NCBI RefSeq assembly: GCF_026013615.1
Contig: NZ_JAPDPI010000010.1
Coordinates: 1 to 64,000 of the forward strand
Direction of reading: 5' to 3'
Origin: Plebeiibacterium marinum
Lineage (GTDB): Bacteria > Bacteroidota > Bacteroidia > Bacteroidales > Marinilabiliaceae
Length of the DNA: 64,000 bases
Positions 24,677 to 47,367 of this stretch are shown here, piece after piece. The stretch's first letter is position 1; each line of letters opens with the position of its first letter. The notes under the pieces are model-generated. The model saw nothing but the letters and a program-made list of their open reading frames with translations. It did no database searches and had not been told where the DNA came from. The position numbers and the translations under genes were made by a program.

Positions 24677-27600
24677 TTACTCTAAATAAGCAGAAGGAGA
24701 ACAATTAAAAAACTTTTTAAACACCCTGCTAAAGTACTTTGGATCATTAAACCCTACCATAAAAGCCACTTCCGAAATTTGGTATTGTTTGCTTTTTAAC
24801 AGCTGGGTTGATTTTTTTAACCTGTATATATTAATGTATTCAATTGGAGATACATCGGTCAACGCTTTTAATTTTTTATATAAAAGACTCCGGCTCACAT
24901 ACATTTTGGAAGAAAAGGCCTCTATATCAAATGCCGGATCTGTATAATTACTTTCAATAACCTGGTTGATTTTTCCCATAAACTCCTCGTCCAATGAAGT
25001 AGTTGGTATATCTGCCGGAATTTCACCCACTGCTGTTTCTGCTTTATGGTAAAATTTCCTGAGCTTTTTCCTGTTTTCTATCAAACTATTAATCCTGGCC
25101 TGCAAAATTCCCAGATTAAATGGTTTAGAAACATAATCATCAGCCCCTAATTCCAAGCCCTCAACAAAGTCTTCTTCCTGTCCTTTTGCCGTTAGGAGTA
25201 TGATTGGCAAATGACTGGTATGTATATTATTTTTTAACCTCTTGCACAATTCCAAACCATCTACTTTGGGCATCATCACATCACTAACCACCAAATCATA
25301 ATCTTTTTCAAGAGCCTTGCCATACCCCTCTTCTCCATCTTTTGCTGTAGTAACAGCATAGGTGTCGCTCAACGATTCGGCAAGAAACTCACGCAAATCT
25401 ACATTATCATCAACAACAAGAATTTTTGTTTTTGATTCACCTATACTATCAATCTCTCCATCGCCTGTACTGGCATGTTTATTATCCTCATTAGTAACCA
25501 ACAGATCAATCCTTTCTTTTAACTGCACCTGACCGTACGACATACCCGATTGTACTTCATGTTCAGGGAAATCCTGTTTTTCTATTGGTAATATCACCTT
25601 AAACGAAGATCCCTTATTTTCTTCACTATCCAAACTAATGGTTCCATTTAGCACCTCTACCATCTGTTTGGCCAATGCCAATCCAATACCAGTTCCATAA
25701 CCTTTATTACCACCTCCTGAAATATCTCTGTAAAACCTCTCAAACACCTTATCCTGATACTCTTTCTTAATACCAATCCCATTATCCTGAATATTTAATA
25801 GCAAATGAGGTTGTTCTGCTTCATTCTTAATTTTAGTAACCGAAATACTAACTTTTCCCTCCTCATTAGTATATTTTATCGCATTCGAAATCAGGTTAAA
25901 TAGTATATTCTCCAGTTTTGCCTGGTCGTACCAGGTATCTTCAAGGTTATAATCAACAGACACACTATATCTGATACTTTTGTTCTCGGCTAATTCCCTG
26001 AATGACTCAGCAATTTCTGAAATAAAATCACCCACATTCCCATTGGTCAACACCACTTTCATTTTTCCGGCTTCAAATTTTCTGAAGGTGGTAATTTCAT
26101 TGGTAAGCAATAACAAACGTTCTGCATTTCTTTTTACGTAGCTCACTGTTTTTTGCACATTTTCCTTTGAGAATGCAAAAGTTTCGCTAAGCATTTTTTC
26201 AATTGGCGATATAATCAAAGTCAGAGGCGTTCTGAACTCATGCGAAATATTGGTAAAAAACTCCATCCTTTTTTGGTGGATAGACTCAATCTCTTTATTC
26301 AGTGTTATCAACTGGTCGCGCTGAGATATAATTTCAGTATTTTGCTGCTCCAGCTGCTCTTTTTGCTTTTCTATCTCTTCTTGCCGGTGTGCCAATTGTG
26401 TATTATTGACCTGCAACTCTTTGGCATTTATTTCGAGCAACTCATTTTTCTCCTTGATTTCCTGCGTTCTTTCCTTAACCAGTTTTTCCAATCGCTTTTT
26501 TTGCTGCGAAATTCTTATGGAACGGTATCGTATATATCCTGATCCTATTAAAAATATGAGAACTACCAAAACAAACTTAAACCATGAGGTTTTCCACATG
26601 GGTGGTTTAATAATTACCAGAGCACTGGTAATATTATCCATCCATGCCCCATCCAGGTCAGTTGACCTGACCTGAAAAAGGTATTCGCCTCCATCTAAAT
26701 TGGTATAGGATGCCACACGCCTGTCTGCATCCACAAAAACCCAATCTTTATCAACTCCATTTAATTTATAGGCATACTTTATTTTTGATGACAGATAATA
26801 AGGCAAAGCTGAAAACTCAAAGCTAAAAACATTGTCTTTATAAGACAAATGGATTGAGTCAGAATAAAAGGCCGAATTTTTAATGGCAACTTTTCCATGC
26901 AGCTCTTCTCCAGGCATAACATCAGAGTTATACACCTTTAACTTAGTGATATATGTATTGGGTTTATACGGATAGCTTTTTATGCTGTCGGGATGAAAAA
27001 AGTTTAACCCATTTAACCCTCCAAAATACAGGTAACCATCCTCTGCCTTGCATGCTGCCGACCAATAATACTGATCATTCTTTAATCCATCCCTATGATA
27101 ATAACTAACAAATGTTTCATCTTCGGGATTAAACTTTGAAAGCCCATTTTCTGTACTAATCCAAATGTTATTGTTTTTGTCTGTCAGCAATTCATAAACA
27201 ACATTATTTGCTAAACCATCCCGCTCCTGAAATGCATCAAACCTAAATGAACCATCCTGACCAGGCACACACTTGGCTACCCCTTTACCATAAGTCCCAA
27301 TCCACACATGGCCCTGTTTGTCCATATCCAGACAAGTGATATAATTATCAGGCAAACTACCGGCCTCATTTGACTCCTTAAACGTTACAATATCGTACCG
27401 GACTAACTGTTGATCATTTTGAGGATATATCAAGCTTGCTTTAAACCTGTACAATCCATTGGTGGTACCAATCCACAAATACCCATCCCTGTCTTCCTGT
27501 ATACAACCCACCTGCCAAACCTTACCATGAACATCATGTTTTACAGGTACTGGTATAAACATATCGTTACGTTTATCATACACAGATAATCCCCCCTGAG

Positions 27601-29017
27601 TACAGACTACCATCAGATTATTACTGCAGGCATAAATACAAGAAACAAAATCATTAGATAAACCCTGGTTGATGTTGTAAGTTGTAAAGCTATTTTTATC
27701 AGCACTGCTCAATTTCTGTATACCCATACCCCAGGTACCAACCCATATCTGACCATCATTATCTTCAAAAACACAGGTGATAAAGTCACTTTGAATTGAA
27801 CCCGGAATTCCTCCACCTGTTTTAAAATGTTTTATCTTATCTTTTAAAAAATTGTATTGAAGCAACCCATCACCGGCTGTTCCAACCCACAAAACATCCT
27901 TTGAACGGTATATAGAGTTCACAATATTTTCATTGAAAGGCTTAAAACGTGCCTCATTGGGCAGAGCATTAAACTGCTTATGGTAATTGTATAAGTGTAC
28001 TAACCCGGTTTTTTCAGTTCCTACCCATACGTTTCCCAACGAATCTGCATATAAAGACCTTATAAACACATCCCTGTTGCTATTTTTTGACGAAGGGAAT
28101 AAATTAATATAGGTAAAGGAATCTTTTTGAGGATTATAACTACAAAGTCCCCCTAAAGTACCCACTAAAATATCTCCAAATCCATTGGTCCCTATACATG
28201 TAATATTCCAATGAGGGATAGTTGTTTCAACTGATGGATCATGAATATACTGCACCGTAGCTGAATTCCTTTTTGAATATCGGTATAAGCCGTTTGGTGT
28301 TCCTATCCAAAGATCCTCTCCGTCATCAAATAATGTTTGCACATCAACTCCGGAGATATCAACACCCAAACCTTTCAATTTATCAAATTTGTCAGTTGAA
28401 GGATTATTAACATAAACACCTTCCGATGTTCCCAAATAAACCACATTGTCCTTATCTTTTTCAATAAAACTTACCTCCGGTAAACTACCATCCATAAAGT
28501 ACTGCTTTACAATACTGAATTGTTCTGCCTTTTCACCAACATTTAATTTATATACCCCTTTATTTTGTGTAGCAACCCATACTGTACGCCCCATTGGCTT
28601 TATATGTGAAATGTTTTCTGCAAACAATTCTTTTAAGGCATTATCTTTAACCTTTTCAAACTTACTGGTTAGCGTATTAAATAACTGAAGACCATTTGGA
28701 GTAATGATCCATAAAAAAAGACTGCCATCAGAGATTACATCAACAATCCTGTCATCCCATAATCCTTCTTCATTTTTTTTACTGTTATAATAATCAAAAT
28801 CATACCCATCAAACCTGCACAGACCATTATCAGTACCAAACCACATAAATCCAAAATGGTCTTTTTCTATGCTTTGAACCGTATTTTGAGGTAGTCCGTT
28901 TGCTACAGTAATATAATTAATAGATGCAGGGGCATAATAGACATTGTTAGAATAAGAAAATGTATAGTTTAAAACAATACAACATAAAAATAATATTACC
29001 TGATATTTAGTTCTCAT
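24677..29017 (-). CDS. Hybrid two-component system regulator HTCS 2 (arabinan PUL)
   Basis: 1446 aa from the ATG at 29017, preferred over an in-frame TTG 21 bases upstream because the signal peptide (VILFLCCIVLNYTFS) then starts normally. Layout: two Reg_prop propellers (about 30-700), Y_Y_Y domain, membrane helix (about 809-830), a long coiled coil of about 80 residues rich in E, K and Q, HisKA with His926 in NISHEFRTPL, HATPase with GYGTGIGLALAKQ, receiver Asp1246 in SDVMMPKVDG, and AraC HTH. Placed inside the arabinan cluster between GH127 and GH43, it probably senses arabino-oligosaccharides. The linker coiled coil is longer than in the other two HTCS of this window. Confidence 0.93.
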   Translation of the reverse strand: MRTKYQVILFLCCIVLNYTFSYSNNVYYAPASINYITVANGLPQNTVQSIEKDHFGFMWFGTDNGLCRFDGYDFDYYNSKKNEEGLWDDRIVDVISDGSLFLWIITPNGLQLFNTLTSKFEKVKDNALKELFAENISHIKPMGRTVWVATQNKGVYKLNVGEKAEQFSIVKQYFMDGSLPEVSFIEKDKDNVVYLGTSEGVYVNNPSTDKFDKLKGLGVDISGVDVQTLFDDGEDLWIGTPNGLYRYSKRNSATVQYIHDPSVETTIPHWNITCIGTNGFGDILVGTLGGLCSYNPQKDSFTYINLFPSSKNSNRDVFIRSLYADSLGNVWVGTEKTGLVHLYNYHKQFNALPNEARFKPFNENIVNSIYRSKDVLWVGTAGDGLLQYNFLKDKIKHFKTGGGIPGSIQSDFITCVFEDNDGQIWVGTWGMGIQKLSSADKNSFTTYNINQGLSNDFVSCIYACSNNLMVVCTQGGLSVYDKRNDMFIPVPVKHDVHGKVWQVGCIQEDRDGYLWIGTTNGLYRFKASLIYPQNDQQLVRYDIVTFKESNEAGSLPDNYITCLDMDKQGHVWIGTYGKGVAKCVPGQDGSFRFDAFQERDGLANNVVYELLTDKNNNIWISTENGLSKFNPEDETFVSYYHRDGLKNDQYYWSAACKAEDGYLYFGGLNGLNFFHPDSIKSYPYKPNTYITKLKVYNSDVMPGEELHGKVAIKNSAFYSDSIHLSYKDNVFSFEFSALPYYLSSKIKYAYKLNGVDKDWVFVDADRRVASYTNLDGGEYLFQVRSTDLDGAWMDNITSALVIIKPPMWKTSWFKFVLVVLIFLIGSGYIRYRSIRISQQKKRLEKLVKERTQEIKEKNELLEINAKELQVNNTQLAHRQEEIEKQKEQLEQQNTEIISQRDQLITLNKEIESIHQKRMEFFTNISHEFRTPLTLIISPIEKMLSETFAFSKENVQKTVSYVKRNAERLLLLTNEITTFRKFEAGKMKVVLTNGNVGDFISEIAESFRELAENKSIRYSVSVDYNLEDTWYDQAKLENILFNLISNAIKYTNEEGKVSISVTKIKNEAEQPHLLLNIQDNGIGIKKEYQDKVFERFYRDISGGGNKGYGTGIGLALAKQMVEVLNGTISLDSEENKGSSFKVILPIEKQDFPEHEVQSGMSYGQVQLKERIDLLVTNEDNKHASTGDGEIDSIGESKTKILVVDDNVDLREFLAESLSDTYAVTTAKDGEEGYGKALEKDYDLVVSDVMMPKVDGLELCKRLKNNIHTSHLPIILLTAKGQEEDFVEGLELGADDYVSKPFNLGILQARINSLIENRKKLRKFYHKAETAVGEIPADIPTTSLDEEFMGKINQVIESNYTDPAFDIEAFSSKMYVSRSLLYKKLKALTDVSPIEYINIYRLKKSTQLLKSKQYQISEVAFMVGFNDPKYFSRVFKKFFNCSPSAYLE

Positions 29018-29085
29018 ATTATATGATAATGAATGCAAAGTAAAATATAATGAAAATAATTACAATAGATCATTATATAAACGAC

Positions 29086-29174: not shown

Positions 29175-31532
29175 CTATTTCAGCAGCCTGACATGATAAA
29201 TTCCACCAGCTGTAGAGTTTTTCTTTGCTATAAATTTCAACACATGCTTTCCGTTTTTTGAGAGAGCCTTAATTTTGTCACTTACAACATAGTCAACCGT
29301 ATAAAACCGGTCTCCCTTATCTCCTTTTAAACTAACCGTAGCAAGCAATACACCGTTCATTTCAATATCAAATTCCCTTCCTGCATCCAGTCCAAAATAT
29401 TCAATACGCAACACCTTAGCTTTATTGTCTTTATCATTTAACAGATAGCTGAACCAACCTGTAGCATCTCTCCAAAAATTGTTTTGATGAATTCCTGAAC
29501 GTGTTTTATTCCCCTTAAAAAAATGATCAGATTCAGGCTGCTGTTCACCTGGCGCAACTTCATCAATAGTTTTCTCTTTTAAAGCAAGCCTTTGCCTTTC
29601 TATTTTTTCCAGTTCATTTTTTCTTGCCACCAGTTCTTCTTTAGTATAAACGGGCCAATAAATCATATAACGTGCATCATGCAAAGAGTAAAATGGCTGC
29701 AGGACCAGGCTATCCAAGCCATTACTATTTATTACAAACTGAAGTTTTTCAATCTCTAAAGGTTTCACCAAAGCTGAAAAATCTTTTTGATCAGAAACTA
29801 TAGTTGGAGCTTTATCTAAAGCATATTGTTTTCCCTGAGCCACGTGTCCCATCCTGCTATCGTCACTAAACAAACCTTGTAAATTAACAGTATCGGTTTT
29901 AGCTGCCAACACTATAGGACCATAAGATATACATGCATAATTAGACTGGTCAGGCAAATTATCCACATGAATCCCCATTGGAAACTGCATTTTTACCTCA
30001 TCCCCATTTTTCCATTTATTCGATATTTCCACATATCCGTTTTGTATTGCAACATTCCTTTGTTTTTGGTTTACCCAAATTTTTACAGAATCAGGATTGG
30101 TCCAATCAGGAACCCTAACCTTTAAAACAAAATCAGCATCTGTTACCGATTCAATATGAATAGAACTTATATCTGAATACGGAAATTTTGTATGTTGTTC
30201 CAATACTACTCCCTTTTCTTTCCAGTTAAGCCTGGATGGAATAAAAAGATTCACCAGCAATTCATTTTGTGCATGTGCGTAGATCATCTCCCCATATTTA
30301 CCATGATTTTCAAGTCCTGACCCTACACAACACCAAAAACAATTTTGAGCTGTGGAGTATACCCTGTAATGTTGCGGTCGCATGGGTGTAAAATAAACGA
30401 ACCCACCCTTATGAGGATGCTGTGAGGACAAAATATGGTTGTACAATGCCCTTTCGTAATAATCTATGTATTTTACATCTGCATCACTTTGAAACAATAA
30501 CCTGGTTAGTTTCAACATATTATAGGTATTACAACTTTCAGGCCCCTGTTCTGATTCAATCATTGATGAAAAATCATCGGTGGGATGAAAATGTTCCCGA
30601 ACACTGTTTCCCCCAATTGCCACACTCATATCGTTAACTACGGTATTCCAGAAATAATGAACGGCCCCATTCCAAAGTGTATCGTTAGCAACATCTGCGT
30701 ACCTCTTATAACCAATTACTTTTGGAATTTGTGTGTTTGCATGCATCCCGGGGAGTTTGTTCTCTTTTTTAGTCAGCGGGGCCAATAGTGACATATCGGA
30801 AAACCTTTTGGCAAATTCAAGAAACTTTGTCTCTTTAGTGATCTCAAACACATCGACAAACACTTCGTTCATTCCTCCATGTTCGCTTATCAATATTTGT
30901 TGCAATTGCTTATCGCTAAGGTGAGCTGTTGATTTGTAAAACCAATTACTCAATTTTATCAATACATTTTTAGCTGTTTCTGAATTTGCATATATCCAGG
31001 CATCCCTTAACCCTGCAAATATTTTATGAATATTATATAAAGGCACCCATTTACCATTCAAAGAAAAAGTACCCTCACGGATATCTCCTTTTGCAATTTC
31101 CTCCCACATCTTTTGGCCACCCGGTATGCCACCTACATAACCATTGCTATTTGCATCCTGGCACTTTTTAATCCAGTTGACAAAATAATCCACTTTAGAT
31201 AACATTACGGTATCACCTGTTGCGGCATACATCAAGGCACAAGCGGTAAGATAATGACCTCCCACATGGCCATCCAATCCTGTATTTTCCCAATTTCCAT
31301 AACTTTCTTTTAAAGGATTGAGTCCTGCTTCTCTTAAATAGGGAGCCAGCAATCTATCCGCATCTAATTTTAAGATGTATGCCTTATCCATTTGCTGGGC
31401 ATCATAAAACATGGAGGGTAACAATTTTACCGAGCTCAAATCAAAATACTCACAACCTCTATCCGTAGGCTGCTGACAGGAAAATAAGGCCACGCTAAGT
31501 AGCAAAACAAAACAACTTCTCACTCTATTCAT
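29175..31532 (-). CDS. GH127 beta-L-arabinofuranosidase
   Basis: 785 aa with a lipoprotein signal (SVALFSC). The (alpha/alpha)6 barrel (about 25-440) contains GPESCNTYNMLKL and CFWCCVGSGLENHGKYGE; Glu and Cys of ESC and the cysteine pair Cys401/Cys402 correspond to the zinc-binding and nucleophile residues of characterised GH127 enzymes. Beta-sandwich domains follow, and a C-terminal module resembling DUF6805 (about 640-785). Enzymes of this family release beta-L-arabinofuranose, for example from RG-II, arabinan or hydroxyproline-linked glycans. It is the first gene of the minus arm and is divergent from the plus-strand GH43. Confidence 0.88.
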   Translation of the reverse strand: MNRVRSCFVLLLSVALFSCQQPTDRGCEYFDLSSVKLLPSMFYDAQQMDKAYILKLDADRLLAPYLREAGLNPLKESYGNWENTGLDGHVGGHYLTACALMYAATGDTVMLSKVDYFVNWIKKCQDANSNGYVGGIPGGQKMWEEIAKGDIREGTFSLNGKWVPLYNIHKIFAGLRDAWIYANSETAKNVLIKLSNWFYKSTAHLSDKQLQQILISEHGGMNEVFVDVFEITKETKFLEFAKRFSDMSLLAPLTKKENKLPGMHANTQIPKVIGYKRYADVANDTLWNGAVHYFWNTVVNDMSVAIGGNSVREHFHPTDDFSSMIESEQGPESCNTYNMLKLTRLLFQSDADVKYIDYYERALYNHILSSQHPHKGGFVYFTPMRPQHYRVYSTAQNCFWCCVGSGLENHGKYGEMIYAHAQNELLVNLFIPSRLNWKEKGVVLEQHTKFPYSDISSIHIESVTDADFVLKVRVPDWTNPDSVKIWVNQKQRNVAIQNGYVEISNKWKNGDEVKMQFPMGIHVDNLPDQSNYACISYGPIVLAAKTDTVNLQGLFSDDSRMGHVAQGKQYALDKAPTIVSDQKDFSALVKPLEIEKLQFVINSNGLDSLVLQPFYSLHDARYMIYWPVYTKEELVARKNELEKIERQRLALKEKTIDEVAPGEQQPESDHFFKGNKTRSGIHQNNFWRDATGWFSYLLNDKDNKAKVLRIEYFGLDAGREFDIEMNGVLLATVSLKGDKGDRFYTVDYVVSDKIKALSKNGKHVLKFIAKKNSTAGGIYHVRLLK

Positions 31533-31908
31533 AATACTATCAATGCTTTTAATTCAGTATTTCAAAATTAACTAAATATCATATAATAAATTTGCAGCAA
31601 GGTGGACATTTTATTCATATAGGTGGATTTTTAAATAATAGCATGCCAACAAGTCGTTACACCTCCCTGTAATAAATGTATAAAAGTGTTTAACACTCAC
31701 CTTAACCCAAGGCCTGAACCACTCCTGCACAAACCATTCAAAACAGCCTTTTAGTATATAAATATTAACACCTTACAGGTTTACAAATCCATCCTCCTCA
31801 TAAAAGTTATCGTCCACCTCTCCATGGAAAACACATCCTACATTTGTTAAATAGTTTTAATAAATGTATTCAGATCATATTACAATTAAGGATTTAAAAT
31901 ACAACAAG
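31533..31908. promoter_or_regulatory. Divergent control region of the arabinan PUL
   Basis: 376 bp, no gene. The minus side carries TAATTTTG (31563-31570), 31 bp before GH127, and the plus side carries TACATTTG (31839-31846), 63 bp before the GH43 ATG. Both fit TAnnTTTG. The motif rich in gtggac/gtggat (31600-31630) and its inverse gtccacc (31812-31818) form a candidate inverted pair, atctccacct-like, that could be an HTCS site; this is inference. Confidence 0.45.
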
Positions 31909-32865
31909 ATGAAAAAGAAAATAATGTATTTAGCTCTGTGTATTGTTGTTATCTCAATAAAACTTCATGCACAAAGCATTATCGTTCACGACCCTGTCAT
32001 GATCCAGGAAACCGATACCTACTACCTGTTTTGTACTGGCCCGGGAATCAGCGCCTGGACTTCGTCTGATATGAAAAACTGGAAGCAAAACGCCCCGGTA
32101 TTTGAAGAATCTCCTGTATGGGCAAAAGAAACAGTTGCTGAATTTAACGGCCATATCTGGGCTCCGGATATTGCTTATTATAACAACCAATATTACTTGT
32201 ATTATTCCATCTCCTCATTTGGAAAAAACAATTCATGTATTGGACTGGCCACCAACAAAACACTCAACCCAGAGGATCCTGAATTCAAATGGGTAGACCA
32301 TGGGATTGTAATTCAATCTTTTCCCGGCGAAACCTATTGGAATGCCATTGATCCCAACTTAATTATATCAGAAGACGGCACTCCTTATTTAAGTTATGGC
32401 TCATTTTGGGGTGGTTTAAAAATGGTTCAGCTCACTAAAGATGCCCAAAAAGTAGTTGGCGATAAAGATGATATACTAACTATTGCTTCCCGCAACACCA
32501 AAGAAAATGCTATTGAAGCACCATTCATATTCAAGAAAGACAATTATTATTACCTTTTTGCTTCCATCGATTTTTGCTGCAGGGGAAAAGACAGCACTTA
32601 CAAAATGATTGTGGGACGCTCCAACAAAATCCAAGGCCCATTTCTGGATAAGAACGGGATAGACCTGGCCAACGGTGGCGGATCAATCCTTTTAAAAGGA
32701 AATGAAAAGTGGCATGGTGTAGGACATAATTCTGCCTACACATTTAACAATACCGACTATCTGGTATTTCACGGATACGATGCCAATGACCAGGGAAAAC
32801 CTAAACTGATCATCAAGCAAATACAATGGGACGACAATGGATGGCCTGTAGTTAATAATGACTAA
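31909..32865 (+). CDS. Compact GH43 arabinanase-like enzyme (GH43_5-type), exported
   Basis: 318 aa. The ATG at 31909 is chosen because it starts a normal signal peptide (KKKIMYLALCIVVIS, cleavage after LHAQ); 31864 would add 15 residues. A single propeller: IIVHDPVMIQETDTYYLF (Asp), HIWAPDIAYYNNQYYLYYS, NAIDPNLI (Asp), AIEAPFIFKKDNYYYLF (Glu), and HGVGHNSAYTF late in the domain. There is no accessory module and no lipobox, so it is probably a periplasmic arabinanase or arabinosidase acting on imported oligosaccharides. It is the first gene of the plus arm. Confidence 0.85.
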   Translation: MKKKIMYLALCIVVISIKLHAQSIIVHDPVMIQETDTYYLFCTGPGISAWTSSDMKNWKQNAPVFEESPVWAKETVAEFNGHIWAPDIAYYNNQYYLYYSISSFGKNNSCIGLATNKTLNPEDPEFKWVDHGIVIQSFPGETYWNAIDPNLIISEDGTPYLSYGSFWGGLKMVQLTKDAQKVVGDKDDILTIASRNTKENAIEAPFIFKKDNYYYLFASIDFCCRGKDSTYKMIVGRSNKIQGPFLDKNGIDLANGGGSILLKGNEKWHGVGHNSAYTFNNTDYLVFHGYDANDQGKPKLIIKQIQWDDNGWPVVNND

Positions 32866-33126: not shown

Positions 33127-34878
33127 ATGAAAATGAAAATAACAAACAAATTGATGAAGTGGGCTTTGTGCATAGCATTTTTGGCAGCACTTGGCCTGGT
33201 TGGGTGTGAAAAAACGGATATTTATTCGATTGATTCACCTGCTGACCTGCAGAGCAAGATTGACTCAATTGCAACTGCAAAAGCAAATATAGATACCGGT
33301 GATACTACGTATATTGATATTGCAACTGCGATAGTAGGCCCGGAAGACAACAGTGCTGGCTGGTGGTCAGCATTCTCTGATTACTTCACCATACCTACAA
33401 ACAAACTATTGCATTTAGAGTTTGTGAACCACAATGGTGGCAGCGCAAACAACTGGAACAACTGGAACCTTGCTATTACCAACGAAGTTGCAGACCGTGA
33501 TGGTGAGGGCTATAAGGAATACTTTGTTCTACGCTCTGATGCATTCGGCTGGGGAGGCGGTATGGGAGACGAGGGCTATGTATATGATGGCAATATGATC
33601 TCTCAAAACTATCCAGACACCGATGGTGATGGTGATATCTGGAACGATTTCCGCACTACCATGGATGGTGCTACCGTTACCCTGGATATTGACCACTCAG
33701 CTACGGGAAATGTATATGTAACTGCAACTGCAGTAGGCACAAATGGTACTGAGCTTGTTCAAACATACCAACAGCCAGTTTCTGCAACAGCTGATATTGT
33801 GGCATTTTTAATTTGTGATGCCAGTTATTTTGAAATGCAAAATGCATACCTTATACCTTCAAAGGTTACAGTGGTAGAAGACGTTGATCCGGTTTCAATC
33901 ACCATAGAAAACAGCCCTTCCTTTGTAGAAATTGGCGACGAGGATTTTTGGGGTGATGCAATTGCTACGGTAACTTTTGCAGATGGTTCTTCAGAGCAGG
34001 TTGATACTGCTGATATTGCATTTAGCGTAATTCCTGACATGACCACACTTGGAGAAAAAACTGTTATTGTAGCCTATAACAAAACTAAGCAAGGAGAATT
34101 CTGCGAAGCTGTAACAACCCTTTATACACTAGAGGTAACAAATTCAGTTTCTAGTCTGGAAGTTACTACCTTGCCTTTAATCAGCACTTACTATTTCTTC
34201 AGTGCCGATCCTATTTTATTCAACCCTACAGGTATTGAGGTAACAGCTACATATTCCGACGGAACAACCGGGGTATTGGAAACAGAGTCGCTTCAGTTTG
34301 GCAGTATTACTGCTGCTGCAGGTTCGCAAACGGCTGAGGTCTCATACACAGGTGCCACAAGTACCGTAACCACAACTTGTCCGCTAACCCTTGTACAAGG
34401 AGTAAGCCAGGTTGGTGCTAATGATTTCTCAACACCTTGGGCAACGTACTCTGAAGAATATCCTGTGGCATCCGGTTCGAGCACAACAATTTCAATGTAC
34501 TGCTACTCCGATAATGCTGCAAACTGGCACACACCATGTTTGGTAGTTGGTAATGCAGGCAATATGAATGTTGACGTAGCTGCTGCCGATGGCGCTGATG
34601 CAGTTGTTCGTATGGATAGCTGGGGATGGGGCGATGGATACGCCACTGCAACAGCAACTTCCGACTGGAATTGGGAAGCATTTGCATCAAACATAAGTGG
34701 TTCTCAAATAGTCATCACTGTTACAAACAATGGCGACAATACGGCTAATATTCGTTACGATGTTACTTACGCTACCGGTGAAACACATTTCCAACTATAT
34801 GAAGGAGTAACGGTAGACAGTGCTGATTTGAGTTGTGCACTCGCAATAGAGGGAGCTTACGTTGTAATCGTTGAATAA
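33127..34878 (+). CDS. Surface glycan-binding-type lipoprotein with duplicated uncharacterised beta-rich module
   Basis: 583 aa from the ATG at 33127 (a TTG at 33112 is possible). Lipobox GLVGC at residue 27. Two homologous modules flank two Ig-like domains (about 255-337 and 341-425). Module N (about 70-246) and module C (about 429-583) share VGxxD start, a central NW, then RxDxxGWG (RSDAFGWG and RMDSWGWG), a Trp-Phe pair and a closing beta region (AYLI, AYVV). Both are rich in Trp, Asn and Gly, like carbohydrate-binding modules. I do not recognise the module as a named family. Position directly before SusC and SusD of the arabinan PUL suggests an arabinan-binding surface protein; here it precedes rather than follows SusD, which is unusual. 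Confidence 0.75.
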   Translation: MKMKITNKLMKWALCIAFLAALGLVGCEKTDIYSIDSPADLQSKIDSIATAKANIDTGDTTYIDIATAIVGPEDNSAGWWSAFSDYFTIPTNKLLHLEFVNHNGGSANNWNNWNLAITNEVADRDGEGYKEYFVLRSDAFGWGGGMGDEGYVYDGNMISQNYPDTDGDGDIWNDFRTTMDGATVTLDIDHSATGNVYVTATAVGTNGTELVQTYQQPVSATADIVAFLICDASYFEMQNAYLIPSKVTVVEDVDPVSITIENSPSFVEIGDEDFWGDAIATVTFADGSSEQVDTADIAFSVIPDMTTLGEKTVIVAYNKTKQGEFCEAVTTLYTLEVTNSVSSLEVTTLPLISTYYFFSADPILFNPTGIEVTATYSDGTTGVLETESLQFGSITAAAGSQTAEVSYTGATSTVTTTCPLTLVQGVSQVGANDFSTPWATYSEEYPVASGSSTTISMYCYSDNAANWHTPCLVVGNAGNMNVDVAAADGADAVVRMDSWGWGDGYATATATSDWNWEAFASNISGSQIVITVTNNGDNTANIRYDVTYATGETHFQLYEGVTVDSADLSCALAIEGAYVVIVE

Positions 34879-34902: not shown

Positions 34903-37900
34903 ATGAAATATATATATTTAATCCTGTTGGGGCTACTGGTTTTTTCACCAGTAACATTTGCTGAAGGCAACGGTAACACCGACCTGATGTCAACAATCCA
35001 GGCAGACAACATAACAGTACATGGTAAAATTGTTGACGAATTTGGAGAACCGCTTACGGGCGCAACTGTAATTCAAAAAGGTTCAACCAATGGTATCATC
35101 ACCGATATTGATGGTAATTTCTCTCTTACAGTTCCTTCAAATGCTACACTTGTTGTAACATTTATCGGATTCAAAAACCTTGAAATAAACGTAGAAGGAA
35201 AAATTGACCTTGGCAGCATCACACTGACATCAGATACTCAAGAAATTGACCAGGTGGTGGTAATAGGCTACGGTACTCAGCGAAAAGTGGACCTTACGGG
35301 TTCTGTTGCCGTTGTTGATACTGAAGAAATGCAGAAAGTATCCAACTCAAACATTTCAACCATGCTTCAAGGTAGGGCATCGGGAGTTCAGATTACTACC
35401 GATGGGCAACCCGGGGCTGATCCTACAGTACGTATCCGCGGTATCGGTTCTTTCGGTAACACTGCACCTTTATATGTAGTGGATGGAGTACCAATGGGAA
35501 CTACCATTCGTGACTTCTCACCAAATGATATTGAGACTCTTCAGGTACTAAAAGATGCTTCTGCAGCTGCCATATACGGAGCCCGTGCTGCCAATGGTGT
35601 AGTTATCATCACCACAAAACAAGGTAAGAAAAACCAGCCAATGAAGATCAACTACAGGGGTTATATGGGTTTTGACCAGGTGGAAGAAGGCGTATATGAT
35701 GTAATGGATTCATACCAATATTCTGAATACCTTTCAATGCTTTATAATAATAGTGATTTGGATTTACCTTCTGGTTACGATCCTACAAGTCCCAACTATA
35801 TTGACCCTAACGATCCTGAAAAATGGGTCAATACCAACTGGTACGATGAAGCTTTTAAAACTGGAGTTCGCCATAATCACAACATCAACTTCTCAGGAGG
35901 TGGTGAAAACAACACTTACAACGTAGCTCTTGACTACTATAGTCAAAAAGGAACCATGGAAGGTGCCGGTCCAAACTTTGACCGTTACACTGCACGTATT
36001 AACAATACAATGGATGTTAAGTTTATCAAATTTAAAACAAGCATTGTATATAGCCACAGCGATCAGGACAACATGGCATTGAGTAATGCAAATGAGTATG
36101 TACAAGGTTTATATGGACAACAATTCCCGGTAATGGCTTCTGTACTGCTTTTACCTCCTACTATCAGGGCTTACGATGAATCAACCTGGGTACTTGACGA
36201 TAAATTGGCTGCTGCTTCTGAATACCAATATGACTCATACGGTTATGGTACTTATTATACCGACGTTCATGGTGATTTGCGTGTAACCAACGTTTTACTT
36301 ACCAACAACCTGCTGGAAAGAAACACTACAGTTGACCGTATTGTTGGTTCCGGATCTGCAAATGTTGACCTTTTTGATATGGTGGGCCGCAAAAGCAAGA
36401 ACCATAAGTTAAATTACAATCTTAACCTGGCATATAGCAAAACCATTGCCAAGGACTTTACTTTTGTTCCTGCTTTTATTCAGAGTACAGCAAACTACCT
36501 GACAAAAAGCAACGAAACCCTGTCGCAAGCTTATCGCAGCTACAGCAACTCGCTAATTGAAAACACGCTTACTTACGATGGTAAGTTTGGACGAAATAGT
36601 GTAAATGTGCTTGTTGGTCACACTTTTGAACGCAACCGTGAACACAGGCTTGACGGATCAGGCGTGAACATGCCGGAACCATACTACCTTCAAGTAGGTA
36701 ATGCTGCCGACAGAGATGCATCTTCAGCAGAATATGAGGGTAGTTTAGAGTCTTTTATTGGTCGTGTAAACTACAATTTTGATGATAAATACCTTCTTTC
36801 AGCAACCGTACGTCGTGACGGAGCGAGCCGCTTATCTTCAGAAGACCGTTGGGATATTTTCCCTTCTGTTTCGGCAGGATGGCGTATCGAACGCGAAAAC
36901 TTTTTCCCGGTAGACGCTTCTATTATTAACCTTCTTAAACTTCGTGCAAGTTACGGAGAGCTAGGTTCTATTCAGGGATTAGGTTACTACGACTATATGG
37001 GAATTATGCAGAGAGGTGACTATACCTATAGCTTTGGGAACAACAAAGTTACCGGTTCTGCAGTATCAAACTATGTGAACGAATATATTAGATGGGAAAA
37101 GAAGAAAACCATCGATATTGGTCTTGACCTGGCGATGTTCAATAATCAGTTAGAATTCAACTTTGACTATTATGAGGCAACTTCTGAAGATCTTCATTAT
37201 GGTGTTCCTGTTCCTCTTGTGGCTGGAGCTACCAACGCCGATGTTAGAATGAATGCGGCTACCATGATAAACAAAGGTCTTGAGTTTTTGGTTTCTTATC
37301 GTAATCATAACCGTGCTATCAAATATGATATTTCGGCTAACTTATCAACTATTAAAAATGAGGTTACCAAGTTAGGTGTATTAAACACTCCCCGTGTTGA
37401 TGGATATTGCCGTACTGAAGTAGGAAGCGAAGTGGGTCAGTTTTATGGCTACGTTTACGAAGGCATTTTCCAATCGCAAGAACAAATTGACAACCGCGTA
37501 AACTCCGAAGGTGAATATGTAACCCAGTTTGGAGCACAACCGGGCGATGTAGCCTACGCCGACATTAACAACGATGGTGAGATTACTAACGAAGACCAGA
37601 CTATTTTAGGAAGCGGTTTGCCAGATTTTACTTATGGACTAAATGCTCGTGCTGAGTGGAACGGTTTTGACATAAGTGTGGCAACAACCGGAGCTGCAGG
37701 CTTTAAAGCAGTAGATTTTGTAGATCTTACATTGCACAGTTCATACGGAGCACTTAACAAAAGTGTTGATCTATTAGATGCCTGGAGACCGGACAACCCA
37801 AACTCCAATGTACCTCGCGTACAGTATAAGTCAACCGGCTCAATCACTAATGATATGTTCAGCCAGCGTTTTATTCAAAATGCATCATATCTTAAAATTG

Positions 37901-38115
37901 CTAACGTTGAATTGGGATATAACTTCCCTGACAAATGGTTTGCTGGCTATGTTAACAATGTACGTTTGTATGTATCAGGTCAAAATTTATATACCTTCTC
38001 AAAATACAAAGGCTACAACGTAGACTTTGCCGGAGGTACTTTGACCCCGGGTTACAACTATGCTTCGTACCCAACACCACGAACCATCATGTTCGGAGCT
38101 CACTTCTCATTCTAA
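34903..38115 (+). CDS. SusC-like TonB-dependent importer (arabinan PUL)
   Basis: 1070 aa with a signal peptide (VFSPVTFAEG), carboxypeptidase-regulatory-like domain (VHGKIVDEFGEPLTGATV, about 39-115), plug (QVVVIGYGTQRKVDLTG, PLYVVDGVPMG, TLQVLKDASAAAIYGARAANG) and a barrel ending SYPTPRTIMFGAHFSF. It lies 25 bp after the binding-protein gene and 27 bp before SusD, so the three form a compact transcript. Import of arabino-oligosaccharides is inferred from the neighbouring GH43, GH51 and GH127 genes. Confidence 0.95.
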   Translation: MKYIYLILLGLLVFSPVTFAEGNGNTDLMSTIQADNITVHGKIVDEFGEPLTGATVIQKGSTNGIITDIDGNFSLTVPSNATLVVTFIGFKNLEINVEGKIDLGSITLTSDTQEIDQVVVIGYGTQRKVDLTGSVAVVDTEEMQKVSNSNISTMLQGRASGVQITTDGQPGADPTVRIRGIGSFGNTAPLYVVDGVPMGTTIRDFSPNDIETLQVLKDASAAAIYGARAANGVVIITTKQGKKNQPMKINYRGYMGFDQVEEGVYDVMDSYQYSEYLSMLYNNSDLDLPSGYDPTSPNYIDPNDPEKWVNTNWYDEAFKTGVRHNHNINFSGGGENNTYNVALDYYSQKGTMEGAGPNFDRYTARINNTMDVKFIKFKTSIVYSHSDQDNMALSNANEYVQGLYGQQFPVMASVLLLPPTIRAYDESTWVLDDKLAAASEYQYDSYGYGTYYTDVHGDLRVTNVLLTNNLLERNTTVDRIVGSGSANVDLFDMVGRKSKNHKLNYNLNLAYSKTIAKDFTFVPAFIQSTANYLTKSNETLSQAYRSYSNSLIENTLTYDGKFGRNSVNVLVGHTFERNREHRLDGSGVNMPEPYYLQVGNAADRDASSAEYEGSLESFIGRVNYNFDDKYLLSATVRRDGASRLSSEDRWDIFPSVSAGWRIERENFFPVDASIINLLKLRASYGELGSIQGLGYYDYMGIMQRGDYTYSFGNNKVTGSAVSNYVNEYIRWEKKKTIDIGLDLAMFNNQLEFNFDYYEATSEDLHYGVPVPLVAGATNADVRMNAATMINKGLEFLVSYRNHNRAIKYDISANLSTIKNEVTKLGVLNTPRVDGYCRTEVGSEVGQFYGYVYEGIFQSQEQIDNRVNSEGEYVTQFGAQPGDVAYADINNDGEITNEDQTILGSGLPDFTYGLNARAEWNGFDISVATTGAAGFKAVDFVDLTLHSSYGALNKSVDLLDAWRPDNPNSNVPRVQYKSTGSITNDMFSQRFIQNASYLKIANVELGYNFPDKWFAGYVNNVRLYVSGQNLYTFSKYKGYNVDFAGGTLTPGYNYASYPTPRTIMFGAHFSF

Positions 38116-38142: not shown

Positions 38143-39903
38143 ATGAAAAGTATATATAAAATTTTAACAATACTGGTACTGGTTGGAGGCTTAACAGCCT
38201 GCAACGACCAGCTTGATGTCGTTGACCCAAACAGTCAAACCACATACGATTTCGGGGATTCTGAATCAGAGCTTCAAGAGGCGATTATTGCGTGTTACAA
38301 CCGTATCCGACTTGAAGGTACTTTTGCACGTGTGGGTTATACAATGGATGCTGTTCGCGGCGATGAAGTATGGAACTCTTCGCAACAATGGTATATTACA
38401 TACGATAACCTTAACTCACCGGGTACCATCGGTATTGGTGACGAGTGGATTTATCGCGACTGCTACCATGTAGTAAACCGTACCAACTTTGTATTGTCAA
38501 AAGTGGATGGTGTACAGATGTCTGAAGATTCATATAATGAGATAGCCGGACAGGCTTTATTCCTAAGAGCATTGGCATACCACCAGTTGGCTACTTATTA
38601 CCAGACAGTACCTTTGGTTACTGACTATGCAACCTATGGTAGTCTTAACACCCTGTATGCTTCAAACAATACTCAAGACGAGATTTTTGATCAGGTTGAG
38701 CTTGACCTTACTGCAGCAATGAACATGTTGCCGTCGCGTGATGAAGGTGGAGAATGGGCAAAAGGACGTGCCACATGTGGATCTGCTGCAGGATATTTAG
38801 CCCGTGCATTAATGTTCCGCCATAAATTTAGCGAGGCATATACTGTATTGAAAGACATCATAGCAGGTAAATATGGTCAGTATGAACTTACAGCCGATTA
38901 CGGTGACAACTTCAGAGAAGGTGCAGCCTACGAGAATAACAAAGAGAGCCTTTTTGAAGTACAGTTTATGGATTATGGAACAGGTGGTACCGATGACGAG
39001 TGGACTCCTGTAAATATTAGTTCAGAAGCCAGCCAGGGACAAGCAGTAGAAAGCAATTACGCATCTCACGAATTTGGTAGCTGGGCCGACCTTGCAGGTT
39101 CACCATGGTTATATAACCTTTTCAAAAAAGAGAACTGTACAGACGGTCGTCTTGATCCACGCCTATACTGGACTTTAGTGACTTACGAAGACGAGTACAA
39201 TACCTATACTGACTTAAAAACAGCAGCGTATCCTAACGGAGACCCTCGTAGTAATACTGTTTATCAAACAGAGATAACTGAAACCCCAACATCAAACGGG
39301 GATAACGGAGGTATCTCAATTGCAAAATGGACCAATGCAAGAAACAACATCTACAGTTCTATTACTGTTGGACTACGTTGTGGTGTAAACTTACGCCTAA
39401 TGCGTTATAGCGATGTACTGCTTCGAGCTGCAGAATGTGAAAATGAAATTAATGGCCCAACACAAACTGCTATAGATTACATCAATATTGTACGCAATCG
39501 TGTTGCTCTTGAAGACCTTCAACTTGAGGATTTTCCAACAGCAGATCACCTGTTTGAACAAATTGCCAATGTTGAACGCCCTAAAGAATTCGGCTGTGAA
39601 AACGGACGCGGAATCGACCTATTGCGTTGGGGATTCTTTTATGATGATGGCCGTCTTAACCAGTTGATTGAACATGCATATTACAAGCGTGACGGTACAG
39701 CCTCTACAGAAGAGCTTACTGAAGAAACTGCTGATGATTCATCGTTCAAGTACTACTACAAAGGGCATGAATATTTCCCAATATTTCAAAACACTCTTAA
39801 TGCCAACCCTAATTTAGTGGGTAACTCGGCAAATAAGAATGAAGATAACGGGCCTGCTTTTAGAGAAAAATATTCAATCCACCCGGTTGTAGATTTAGAT
39901 TAG
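38143..39903 (+). CDS. SusD-like glycan-binding lipoprotein (arabinan PUL)
   Basis: 586 aa with a lipobox (GGLTAC). SusD/RagB features: CNDQLDVVDPNS after the cysteine, FLRALAYHQLATYYQTVPLV, RLMRYSDVLLRAAECEN and a closing PIFQNTLNANPNL. It forms the lid of the SusC just upstream. A terminator-like hairpin follows its stop. Confidence 0.93.
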   Translation: MKSIYKILTILVLVGGLTACNDQLDVVDPNSQTTYDFGDSESELQEAIIACYNRIRLEGTFARVGYTMDAVRGDEVWNSSQQWYITYDNLNSPGTIGIGDEWIYRDCYHVVNRTNFVLSKVDGVQMSEDSYNEIAGQALFLRALAYHQLATYYQTVPLVTDYATYGSLNTLYASNNTQDEIFDQVELDLTAAMNMLPSRDEGGEWAKGRATCGSAAGYLARALMFRHKFSEAYTVLKDIIAGKYGQYELTADYGDNFREGAAYENNKESLFEVQFMDYGTGGTDDEWTPVNISSEASQGQAVESNYASHEFGSWADLAGSPWLYNLFKKENCTDGRLDPRLYWTLVTYEDEYNTYTDLKTAAYPNGDPRSNTVYQTEITETPTSNGDNGGISIAKWTNARNNIYSSITVGLRCGVNLRLMRYSDVLLRAAECENEINGPTQTAIDYINIVRNRVALEDLQLEDFPTADHLFEQIANVERPKEFGCENGRGIDLLRWGFFYDDGRLNQLIEHAYYKRDGTASTEELTEETADDSSFKYYYKGHEYFPIFQNTLNANPNLVGNSANKNEDNGPAFREKYSIHPVVDLD

Positions 39904-39925
39904 GATAATTTGTATTAAATAAATG

Positions 39926-39972
39926 CTTCCTTATCGGCGTATATTATTATATATGCTGGTAAGGAAGTTTTT
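39926..39972 (+). terminator. Intrinsic terminator or attenuator after SusD (arabinan PUL)
   Basis: A 17-bp stem pairs 39926-39942 with 39951-39967 around an 8-nt loop, with three positions kept as G-U pairs in the RNA, followed by TTTTT. It lies 23 bp after the SusD stop and 25 bp before the ATG chosen for the following GH43. Confidence 0.85.
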
Positions 39973-39991
39973 GACAAAAATTATATTAGAT

Positions 39992-41620
39992 ATGAAATTA
40001 AGGTACTTACTGATATTAACTATCAGCATAATGGCTCTATCGTTCGTGGGGTGTAACGACGATGATTTAAAACCTACAGGTATCACCACAAAAGATGATT
40101 CTGATGACGATACCAACACCAATACAGAGCATACAATCCCAACCTACAGCGACGACTATTCACCTATAGCATCATGGGCAGATCGCGGCGATTGGAACCT
40201 GGCCAATGTGCATGACCCAAGCGTGGTGTTCGATGGAACATACTATTATATGTACACCACCGACGCATCCTATGGAAACGCTCACGACGGGCATGGCCAT
40301 TTTCTTTATAGAAGATCAAAAGACCTGGTTAACTGGGAATTCAGAGGCCTTGCCATGTCTGAAACTCCTGCATGGGTTAAAGATACCTTAAATAACCTGA
40401 GAGCCGATGTTGGTCTGGACCCTATTGCCAATCCATCCTATGGGCACTGGGCTCCGGTTGTACGTAAAGTCGGTAACAAATACAGGATGTATTATAGCAT
40501 TGTTGTTGACAATTTTATTGGAAATGGACTATTTAATACTTTAGCCAATTTTGACAATACATGGTCAGAACATGCTTTTATCGGATTAATGGAAACCTCC
40601 GACCTGGCATCCAACCAATGGGAAGATAAAGGCATGGTGGTACATTCCGTTTCAGACAAAGGCACAGACTGGTCAAGAACATCTTACGATTCAGACTGGA
40701 ACGGATATTTCTATTTTAATGCTATTGACCCAACATTTCAGGAAACACCAGAAGGGAAACAATATTTGATATATGGTTCATGGCATTCGGGCATTGCCTG
40801 TGTGGAACTGGACCCAACTACAGGAAAACCTTTTACATACAGCGGAGTTGCTGACAAAGGGCAACGCATAGCAACCCGGGTTAAAAGTGGATACTGGAGC
40901 CGTTGGCAGGGATCAGAAGGACCGGAAATCATGTATAATGAAGAAACGGGATATTACTACTTATTTTTGGCATATGATGGGTTAGATGTGCCATACAATA
41001 CGCGTGTTTGTCGTGCCACAAATATTGAGGGACCATATTATGGTATTGATGGAGCCAATGTAACCGAAGGAGCTGACTGTTTTCCTGTGATTACACACCC
41101 ATATAAGTTTAACGACCACACAGGCTGGGTGGGATTTGCCCACAATGCAGTTTTCCAGAACGAGGAAACAGGCGACTGGTTTTATGCCTCACAGGCACGC
41201 TTGCCCAAAGATGTTGCCGGAATTAATGTAAGTAATGCAATAATGATGGGGCACGTACGCAAAATACGCTGGACACAAGATGGCTGGCCTGTTGTTATGC
41301 CGGAACGTTATACAAACGCACCAGATGACCTAATTGAAGCAGAAGATTTGGTTGGTACATGGGAACATATTACATTAAATTATCAATATGCTGTTCAGCA
41401 AGAATCTGTTTCTTTAATATTGAATTCAAGCAACGAAGCATCCGGAGCATTAGCAGGCAACTGGTCATTTGACTCAGATAAGAACATATTAACTATCGGC
41501 TCAACCCAGTTATGCGTTGAACGCGAAGTAGACTGGGAAGCCAATCCTCGAAAAGTTACTTTAATATATTCTGGTTTATCAGATAGTGGCGTATCCCTAT
41601 GGGGTAAAAAAACAAAATAA
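39992..41620 (+). CDS. GH43 endo-arabinanase-like surface lipoprotein
   Basis: 542 aa. The ATG at 39992 is chosen because it starts a lipoprotein signal (LSFVGC) and lies after the terminator hairpin; the ORF could extend to 39923, but that would run through the hairpin. An acidic Asp/Thr-rich linker follows the cysteine, usual for surface-exposed lipoproteins. Propeller: NVHDPSVVFDGTYYYMYTTD, WAPVVRKVGNKYRMYYS, FNAIDPTFQETPEGK, GSEGPEIMYNEETGYYYLF, then HTGWVGFAHNAVF. A C-terminal lipocalin-like module (about 430-540). Paralogue of the protein at 22949-24454, with longer inserts, so probably the second endo-arabinanase. Confidence 0.87.
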   Translation: MKLRYLLILTISIMALSFVGCNDDDLKPTGITTKDDSDDDTNTNTEHTIPTYSDDYSPIASWADRGDWNLANVHDPSVVFDGTYYYMYTTDASYGNAHDGHGHFLYRRSKDLVNWEFRGLAMSETPAWVKDTLNNLRADVGLDPIANPSYGHWAPVVRKVGNKYRMYYSIVVDNFIGNGLFNTLANFDNTWSEHAFIGLMETSDLASNQWEDKGMVVHSVSDKGTDWSRTSYDSDWNGYFYFNAIDPTFQETPEGKQYLIYGSWHSGIACVELDPTTGKPFTYSGVADKGQRIATRVKSGYWSRWQGSEGPEIMYNEETGYYYLFLAYDGLDVPYNTRVCRATNIEGPYYGIDGANVTEGADCFPVITHPYKFNDHTGWVGFAHNAVFQNEETGDWFYASQARLPKDVAGINVSNAIMMGHVRKIRWTQDGWPVVMPERYTNAPDDLIEAEDLVGTWEHITLNYQYAVQQESVSLILNSSNEASGALAGNWSFDSDKNILTIGSTQLCVEREVDWEANPRKVTLIYSGLSDSGVSLWGKKTK

Positions 41621-41774: not shown

Positions 41775-42905
41775 ATGACAATGAAAAATCTATATTATTA
41801 CATTTTCATCTGCTTTGTTGCATTCAGTTGTACTGCTCCCAGCTCAAATATCAAATTATTAAACAAGGAAGCTTTTGCCAAAGAAGTAGACGGTAAAAAA
41901 GTTGAGTTATTCACCTTAAAAAACACAAATGGCTTAGTTTCAGAAATCACCAACTATGGCGGACGCGTTGTATCGCTTTGGGTTCCTGGAAAAAACGGTG
42001 AATTTGCTGACGTAAGTATTGGTTATAATAAAATTGATGGATACCTGAACAATCCGGAAAGCTACTATGGAGCATTAATCGGGCGCTATGGAAACCGTAT
42101 TTGTAAAGGTCAATTTGTTATTGATGGGGATACTTCTAAATTAATCATCAACAACGGAGAAAACTCTTTACACGGAGGTACCATTGGTTTTCACGATCGC
42201 GTATGGGATGCAAAGCCTGTAGGAGAAAACAAGCTTGAATTAACTTATACTTCTGTTGATGGAGAAGAAGGTTACCCTGGTAAATTAGACGTAAAAGTGG
42301 TTTATGAATTAACAGATGCCAACGAACTGAAAATAGAGTATTTTGCATCTACTGATAAGCCAACTCACGTAAACCTTACCAATCATACTTACTTCAACCT
42401 TGGAGGAGAAGCTTCCGGTACCATCAACAACCATGTTTTGATGCTTAACGCTGATGCATACACACCTGTTGATGCTGGTTTAATCCCAACAGGAGAGATT
42501 GCTTCAGTTGAAGGTACTCCATTCGATTTTAAAAAACCAACTGCTATTGGTGCCCGTGTTGATGAAGACAACGAACAGTTAAAGATGGGTGGTGGTTACG
42601 ACCACAACTGGGTATTGAACCAGGCAAAAGAAGGCTTAACTTTAGCTGCTGTTTTAACTGAGCCGGTTTCAGGAAGAACTATGGAAGTTTTAACTAATGA
42701 ACCAGGTATTCAGTTTTATGGTGGTAATTTTATAACTGGCGAGTACGAAGGCAAATATGGAAAAAAATTAAACTATCGCGAAGCACTTTGTTTAGAAACA
42801 CAGCACTTCCCAGATAGTCCTAACCAACCAGAGTTTCCTTCAACTCTTTTAAATCCGGGAGAAGATTATTATTCTGTTTGTATTTATAAATTTAAGGCCG
42901 AATAA
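41775..42905 (+). CDS. Aldose 1-epimerase (mutarotase), exported
   Basis: 376 aa (ATG at 41781 equally possible). Export signal with a possible lipobox (VAFSC). GalM fold: NYGGRVVSLWVPG, GRYGNRICKGQF, NSLHGGTIGFHD (His), HVNLTNHTYFNL (His), GYDHNWVL (Asp) and ALCLETQHFPDSPNQPEF (Glu), which together supply the known catalytic residues. It interconverts anomers of released aldoses, here probably arabinose or galactose in the periplasm, before uptake. Its own upstream gap of 154 bp has no clear promoter. Confidence 0.92.
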   Translation: MTMKNLYYYIFICFVAFSCTAPSSNIKLLNKEAFAKEVDGKKVELFTLKNTNGLVSEITNYGGRVVSLWVPGKNGEFADVSIGYNKIDGYLNNPESYYGALIGRYGNRICKGQFVIDGDTSKLIINNGENSLHGGTIGFHDRVWDAKPVGENKLELTYTSVDGEEGYPGKLDVKVVYELTDANELKIEYFASTDKPTHVNLTNHTYFNLGGEASGTINNHVLMLNADAYTPVDAGLIPTGEIASVEGTPFDFKKPTAIGARVDEDNEQLKMGGGYDHNWVLNQAKEGLTLAAVLTEPVSGRTMEVLTNEPGIQFYGGNFITGEYEGKYGKKLNYREALCLETQHFPDSPNQPEFPSTLLNPGEDYYSVCIYKFKAE

Positions 42906-46260: not shown

Positions 46261-46463
46261 CAGAAGGTTTTGGGCGGTTGTGTTTTGATAAAATAAGTCA
46301 AGAAACATAGCCCGTCCCAATTTAACACAGCCTCACCCCACAGATAGAGAGGCTTTCCCTTCAGGGGCCATACCCTTTATATACAATTATCATATGGCCC
46401 TAGCATGGCCCCGCCGGAATGGATTGTTAACGATGTGTGCGCAAACATTTTGATGAAAATGTA

Positions 46464-46471
46464 TATATTTG
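46464..46471 (+). promoter_or_regulatory. Candidate -7 promoter element for the DUF4861 gene
   Basis: TATATTTG fits TAnnTTTG and lies 20 bp before the chosen ATG at 46492, within the longer ORF that begins at 46405, which supports the shorter start. Confidence 0.35.
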
Positions 46472-46491
46472 CTGTACTAAAACTTATAAAC

Positions 46492-47367
46492 ATGAAGTCG
46501 ATTATTTTATTTCTTTCAATTATTACGCTTGGCACGCTATCGGTGTCATCTCAAAACAAAACAGAAGCCAGCTTATTTTATCGCAGCGATTCGGTATATG
46601 TAGACGAAATAAAAGATGCATCAGGTGATTTGTACCAGAAAGTTGGCCATCATGGACCTGCCATAGAAAACGAATGGATGGCATTACGATTGTATTTTAA
46701 CAATAAAGCCTGTGCCATTGATGTTTACAACAAACAAAAGAAAGGACTTGAGTTAAAAACTGCCAAATGGTATCCTACTGAAAAAGAACAAAAAAAAGGT
46801 TTAGGAGCTGATTATTATAAAGCAGGTTCAACTATGGGATTAGGCGGCATTCGCCTTTGGGATGGTGAAAAGGTTGTTCCCCTGGCACCGATTTCGATGC
46901 GTACAGCCAAAGTGAAAAAATGCGGAAGCATATCGCAAATGGAAATGCTTTCGGAAAATGTTCCTTACAAAGGGAAAGAAGTAGACATTTTAGTCAGAGT
47001 AACTGCATTCTCGGGCATTAGGGAAATGAGAGTAGAAGCCTTTGCCTTAACTGATGAAGAGGTACAATTTGTGACCGGCATCAACTACCACAAAGGCCAA
47101 GAGGTAAAAAAAGAAGATAACTATGTGATTTCATGGGGATATCACCCTGAAGATGTTGCTGCTGAAAAAATTAAGGTGGGTGCAGCAATTATCATCAATC
47201 CCGAAAATTATTCTGATAAAAAGGATGATGGCAAACAGCAAATGTTTATTTCAAAACCAACAAAATATATCGATCATTGGGTAACTTCAACCATTGAAAA
47301 GGATAAAAAACTGGGTAGTTTAGAAGCCTTTGAAGAATATGTAATCCAGTGTTCAAAAGACATATAG
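46492..47367 (+). CDS. DUF4861-family exported protein
   Basis: 291 aa from the ATG at 46492, which starts a signal peptide (LSIITLGTLSVSSQ); the 46405 start would place 29 unlikely residues before it. The mature protein looks like a DUF4861 beta-sandwich protein: HHGPAIENEWMALRLYFNNKACAIDVY near the start, TMGLGGIRLWDGEKVVPL, a conserved SWGYHPEDVA, and a closing IDHWVTSTIE. Family members recur in pectin-related loci; I know of no firm activity. Isolated gene between the arabinan and galactan PULs, so it may be an accessory for the rhamnogalacturonan-I backbone. Whether it is enzyme or binding protein is unknown. Confidence 0.75.
   Translation: MKSIILFLSIITLGTLSVSSQNKTEASLFYRSDSVYVDEIKDASGDLYQKVGHHGPAIENEWMALRLYFNNKACAIDVYNKQKKGLELKTAKWYPTEKEQKKGLGADYYKAGSTMGLGGIRLWDGEKVVPLAPISMRTAKVKKCGSISQMEMLSENVPYKGKEVDILVRVTAFSGIREMRVEAFALTDEEVQFVTGINYHKGQEVKKEDNYVISWGYHPEDVAAEKIKVGAAIIINPENYSDKKDDGKQQMFISKPTKYIDHWVTSTIEKDKKLGSLEAFEEYVIQCSKDI

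Follow-up and report, generated by a model that had tools for sequence, protein, structure and literature searches.

The arabinan locus of Plebeiibacterium marinum

The window analysed here is a 64,000-nucleotide stretch of Plebeiibacterium marinum DNA. A run of genes on its plus strand encodes, in this order, a GH43 enzyme whose nearest family is the arabinanase AbnA (31864..32865; NF053747, 332 bits, under the cut-off of 480), a 583-aa lipoprotein (33127..34878), a SusC/RagA TonB-dependent transporter (34903..38115; TIGR04056, 860.9 bits), a SusD-like protein (38143..39903; PF07980), a GH43 endo-arabinanase matching the BT0360 equivalog (39923..41620; NF049889, 704.6 bits, cut-off 600), the aldose 1-epimerase GalM (41775..42905) and an alpha-L-arabinofuranosidase domain protein with a T9SS tail (43066..45789), which we take to be of the GH51 type. 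The genes of a GH127 beta-L-arabinofuranosidase family protein (29175..31532) and a hybrid two-component regulator (24677..29038) lie on the minus strand. This set, with two GH43 enzymes, a GH127 enzyme, an arabinofuranosidase and GalM, supports the presence of an arabinan locus. The first-pass annotation had placed the lipoprotein gene directly before SusC and SusD in such a locus, and the family matches of the neighbours bear this out. By its open reading frame, lipobox, domains and SusC/SusD neighbours, the lipoprotein is a candidate arabinan SGBP. It is the sole match in its own genome, where SusD and GH43 gave 51 matches each (matches, not genes).

Close to where the arabinan gene run ends, a DUF4861 protein is encoded (46405-47367). 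Beyond it, the minus strand carries a GH53 galactanase-family gene (47474-50581), which has as its neighbour a SusE-type protein containing DUF5111 and DUF5114, so that the arabinan locus seems to border on one of the galactan type.

Domain organisation and internal duplication of the lipoprotein

The 583-aa open reading frame has a lipoprotein-type start (...LGLVGC27EKTD), in which the signal peptide with its lipobox (33127..33207, plus strand) ends at Cys27 (LVGC). This cysteine is invariant in 19 aligned homologues; the lipobox, and the acidic residue that follows Cys27 in the window protein, were read by eye. These features suggest that the protein may be displayed on the cell surface. A lipoprotein encoded beside a SusC/SusD pair, as an SGBP is expected to be, is thus what the window holds, with the lipobox judged by eye.

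Two modules, A (residues ~62-247; 33310..33867) and B (residues ~422-583; 34390..34875), flank a linker of two Ig-like, Big_3-like domains (33868..34389; PF07523), all on the plus strand. The boundaries proposed at first, 70-246 and 429-583, were close to these. The proposed pair of Ig-like domains was recovered as two Big_3 stretches at E <= 1 (whole protein 22.3 bits, cut-off 21.2). The modules had been described as Trp-rich, and they hold 6 Trp in 186 residues (A) and 6 in 162 (B), against 1 in the 174 residues between them.

The homology proposed for the two halves was confirmed in three ways. In a single-pair BLASTP, residues 60-252 and 421-583 aligned with 20% identity (38.5 bits, E 9e-9). 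The Smith-Waterman score of A against B was 93, which none of 1000 shuffles equalled (mean 37.4, z 8.5), and separate profiles of A and B matched each other over 152 columns with a probability of 99.9% (E 3.7e-34). Judged on these alignments, the duplication is real and well beyond chance. Moreover, a module profile recovered 11 module copies in 5 held-out homologues, with E from 3.3e-19 to 1.6e-48.

An unnamed sequence family with a probable lectin-like fold

The claim that the module is an unrecognised one held up, since nothing named matched by sequence in Pfam, NCBIfam or the PDB chains. The search for an existing named CBM or SGBP family gave none in Pfam or NCBIfam, including the CBM families there. 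When 39 modules were compared with Pfam, the best E was 0.015 for one member, module A of the window matched 0 families, and LamG (PF13385) was absent from the matches. The whole window protein reached at best 10.1 bits in NCBIfam (cut-off 24). Viral contigs gave no match to the module, and among the papers listed on arabinan-binding families none names it. A single PDB sequence match (3fym, E 0.56) was taken as chance, as were two weak class-level matches (G272, E 3e-4; G365, E 6e-4) once their sequences had been read.

After removal of short, low-scoring and >85%-identical copies, 142 non-redundant modules were kept. One alignment (A6) contained 109 modules and the window's two, and another (A7) 72 and the window's two. 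AlphaFold2 models reached a pLDDT of 89.1 and a pTM of 0.87 for module A (111 alignment rows), and 91.0 and 0.87 for module B (74 rows). The main strands run in the same order in both models and the helix lies in the same place, B having one extra short helix. Foldseek matched neither module at E <= 0.001. With VIA-align, in which a Z near 8 can reflect a common arrangement alone, module A matched 2k2s (Z 10.6; 3.0 A, 123 residues) and the C-terminal sandwich of BT1760 (8aa2_E; Z 9.8; 3.1 A, 134), and module B the same BT1760 sandwich (Z 8.6; 3.3 A, 124) and galectin-13 (6kjy; Z 8.3; 3.2 A, 120). Identities in the rows shown were 3-13%, and in these comparisons the galectins and lectins were not clearly surpassed by any CBM.

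Both modules are confidently modelled as beta-sandwiches, which resemble galectins, legume lectins and the concanavalin-like fold. The two halves are alike in predicted structure, with the same strand order and nearest folds in common, as the first-pass annotation would have it. The novelty proposed there does not extend to the fold: the sequence family is unnamed, and the predicted fold is probably a known one. A shared fold by itself shows no function.

Distribution and gene order in relatives

A match to the window protein was found in 32 of 149 genomes, its own included, and in 0 of 8 genomes of the same genus; the latter absence fits an accessory locus. In the loci fetched from relatives, the order SGBP-SusC-SusD occurred in 20 of 29, with a BT0360-like GH43 next in 19 of these 20, while SusC-SusD-SGBP occurred in 4. 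The 29 include three loci without a usable SusC/SusD order (L063, L067 and L066, the last with no hit to the module) and two in which SusC follows the SGBP and no subsequent SusD was matched (L045, L065). The first-pass annotation had SGBPs normally coming after SusD. The position before SusC is nevertheless not unusual: 20 of the 29 loci share the order, and Bacteroides loci of BT0360-0369 layout likewise have the SGBP between the regulator and SusC.

A scan of a genome collection found the module encoded in 424 stretches, the best 80 of which lean towards the subfamily of the query. These 80 carry Bacteroidales titles, except one titled Rickettsiales (L113), and the module recurs across gut and rumen Bacteroidales. 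In L113, the module protein is followed by two GH43 genes; this is probably a mis-binned Bacteroidales contig. Of the best 80 loci, 73 have SusD immediately upstream of the module protein. The 82 non-enzyme module ORFs of the 80 comprise 50 with three copies, 29 with two and 3 with one, the two- and one-copy groups including cut or split ORFs; the usual three-copy architecture is A-Ig-B-B. The 215 module stretches likewise include some whose ORFs are cut or split (L096, L100, L113, L154). One locus (L157) encodes, besides a normal three-module SGBP, a 587-aa protein of three modules without Ig domains, the C-terminal tail of which resembles a secretion signal (15802-17565).

Association with GH43 enzymes

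The tie to arabinan loci claimed from the window alone is strengthened by the relatives, through both neighbouring and fused GH43 enzymes. GH43 was detected in 75 of the best 80 of the 424 stretches. In 71 of these 75 it lies on the same strand and was recognised by its likeness to the enzymes of the window or because it carries a module itself; the others are L085, on the other strand, and L083, L155 and L160, by Pfam. No GH43 was found in five stretches (L084, L107, L110, L124 of 3.4 kb, and L140); among these, Pfam was run on a single neighbour in L107, which has leucine-rich repeats, and on one in L084, which matched no family.

In 7 of the best 80 loci, the module is C-terminal to a GH43 domain, and the fusions are of two kinds. 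One consists of a BT0360-like enzyme and then the module; the enzyme of L086 scores 825.9 against the BT0360 endo-arabinanase cut-off of 600. The other consists of another GH43, an aBig_2 domain and then the module. The module is hence appended to enzymes in relatives, as is asked of a CBM, in the GH43 fusions of L086, L087, L096, L097, L098, L103, L114 and L071, and it is also fused to GH53 in L206.

In a table of 301 genomes of one family, 20 have the module and a BT0367-type GH43, 9 the module only, 25 the enzyme only and 247 neither. The co-occurrence has a Fisher P of 1.8e-12, uncorrected for shared descent. The table joins two like-run searches of the 301 genomes through the handles that their listed genomes share, and the BT0367-type enzyme was called at E <= 1e-50. 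As to expression, PUL12 and PUL27 of Phocaeicola vulgatus respond to arabinan according to PMC7939548, and one module locus (L095) is from Phocaeicola vulgatus.

Exchange with LamG domains

Thirty genomes supplied a BT0367-type locus for comparison. In 8 of them, a protein of ~606-658 aa with two tandem modules lies between the regulator and SusC (L166, L178, L181, L182, L185, L195-L197), and in 9 an A-Ig-Ig-B protein follows SusD (L168, L169, L183, L186-L190, L192). The module was not seen in the other 13 fetched stretches, so it is not required for an arabinan locus. Two of these 13 stretches, L193 and L194, are short; in the genome of the latter, a separate contig (L207) encodes a tandem-module protein. 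In five of them, a 739-789-aa protein occupies the place of the SGBP (L170, L179, L184, L191, L199).

The L199 protein, at the BT0365 position, has LamG (PF13385) in three stretches and lacks the module. Its genome (G958) contains a 196-residue, 100% match to PDB 4a2l, which we take to be a Bacteroides thetaiotaomicron protein, and this match ties G958 to that species. The L166 protein retains LamG1 of the L199 protein (E 4e-36) and has two modules in the place of LamG2-3. In L032, module A and an Ig domain are followed by a LamG domain that resembles LamG3 and LamG2 (E 7e-30 and 3e-26) and replaces the second module; the E-values for L166 and L032 come from a four-sequence set. Mutual replacement prompted a comparison of the module with LamG profiles in hhalign, and no homology was found (probability 0.1%). 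Two sequence-unrelated families thus fill equivalent slots in one kind of protein. The review PMC8002723 reports that BT0365 binds arabinan, and because of this reported binding the exchange gives the strongest indirect indication of what the module does.

Conserved residues and the state of module B

Three residues of module A (R136, D138 and W142) never vary across 111 modules, and six more (E131, Y132, N112, W80, G71 and D74) hardly do. Module B of the window retains R495, D497, W501, G502, W438, G430 and D433. It has M457, T469 and P470 where F (107), N (108) and an aromatic residue (107 of 111) are found, and A490 and D491 where E (110) and Y (109 of 111) are found; one of the two N-terminal aromatics is missing as well. 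A frame shift behind the odd stretch 470-491 was considered and rejected, as stops interrupt both alternative frames and neither shows a conserved motif. These substitutions argue for a changed or lost site, and module B of the window may differ in its binding or have lost it. The two equal binding sites first proposed are accordingly doubtful.

It is a serious possibility, though it falls short of being probable, that only module A binds glycan and that module B of the window is a decayed or structural copy. In favour of such decay, the residues lost are ones that 107-110 of the 111 modules share; against it, module B keeps R495, D497, W501 and G502, is predicted as confidently as A, and has its E-Y pair intact in most aligned relatives.

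Ligand breadth

The module also occurs outside arabinan-type settings. A GH53-family protein of 1335 aa (L206:7353-11360, minus strand) carries two modules with a LamG between them, which suggests that the module is used beyond arabinan. Six large proteins (L200-L205; 959-1999 aa) carry one module each. Pfam found no catalytic domain in them, and some match DUF4859 or InlB-type repeats. The gene next to that of L200 encodes DUF6055 and DUF4859. In 6 of the 29 module-bearing genomes of the one family, the module is found in large proteins and a BT0367-type match is absent at E <= 1e-50.

Through the GH53-family protein and these six genomes, the module could be seen as binding pectic side chains or other plant glycans in general, with arabinan SGBPs as one use. 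We consider this rather unlikely, as SGBP and GH43 settings prevail among the 80 loci, although these are the best of 424 and favour the subfamily of the query. The proposal of an arabinan-binding family therefore stands in its tie to arabinan-type loci and has to be widened for the GH53 protein and the six large proteins. Most likely, the module is plant-glycan-binding, and its SGBP branch binds arabinan. A structural or docking role within the SusC/SusD complex, with no binding of glycan, is very improbable: the module protein adjoins SusC/SusD in most loci read, but the module is also joined to GH43 and GH53 enzymes and replaces lectin-like LamG domains.

Proposed role and significance

In our reading, the window protein is very probably the SusE-position SGBP of an arabinan locus, with two lectin-like modules of one unnamed family that hold arabinan. 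We infer arabinan as the ligand and binding by both copies. The lipid-anchored protein would carry both lectin-like modules on a stalk of two Ig-like domains, and at the cell surface the modules would capture arabinan by its alpha-1,5-L-arabinofuranose chains or the branches of these. The GH43 endo-arabinanase would cut the arabinan held there, and SusC/SusD would import the resulting fragments. Of the earlier reading as a whole, the unnamed module and the arabinan setting are largely upheld, and the unusual gene order and the two equal sites less so. Beyond the window, we lean towards a new carbohydrate-binding family in Bacteroidales: an arabinofuranose-adapted galectin-like sandwich used as one to three exchangeable units on capture lipoproteins and endo-arabinanases, and swapped slot for slot with LamG.

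Family libraries often lack the binding modules of SGBPs, which is why these proteins are poorly annotated within polysaccharide utilisation loci. A module that marks arabinan loci in Prevotella, Segatella, Phocaeicola and Bacteroides would help to predict the use of pectin side chains. It would also provide a tractable case of two sequence-unrelated lectin-like families exchanged slot for slot in one task.

Comparison with known systems

By fold, the galectin/concanavalin A-like domains of galectin-13, the galectin-like domain of MIC1 and the C-terminal sandwich of BT1760 are nearest to the predicted modules. Among SGBPs, one for dextran is treated in PMC10936149. For arabinan, a close case by gene order is Segatella copri DSM18205, in which growth on pectic arabinan induces a SusC-SusD-SGBP-B-GH43_4 cluster (NQ544_10425-10440), according to PMC11784079. 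A locus of S. copri strain Indica (L120) has the same order and a two-module protein in the SGBP-B place. By its place in this order, that protein is probably the counterpart of SGBP-B in DSM18205.

Another close counterpart is BT0365 of B. thetaiotaomicron, which shares its position between the regulator and SusC with module proteins of other Bacteroides. It has the same presumed ligand, arabinan, and several lectin-like domains, and its relatives exchange domains with the module. The difference lies in the domains themselves: in the B. thetaiotaomicron-like genome, where the L199 protein stands in for BT0365, the position is filled by three LamG domains and no module.
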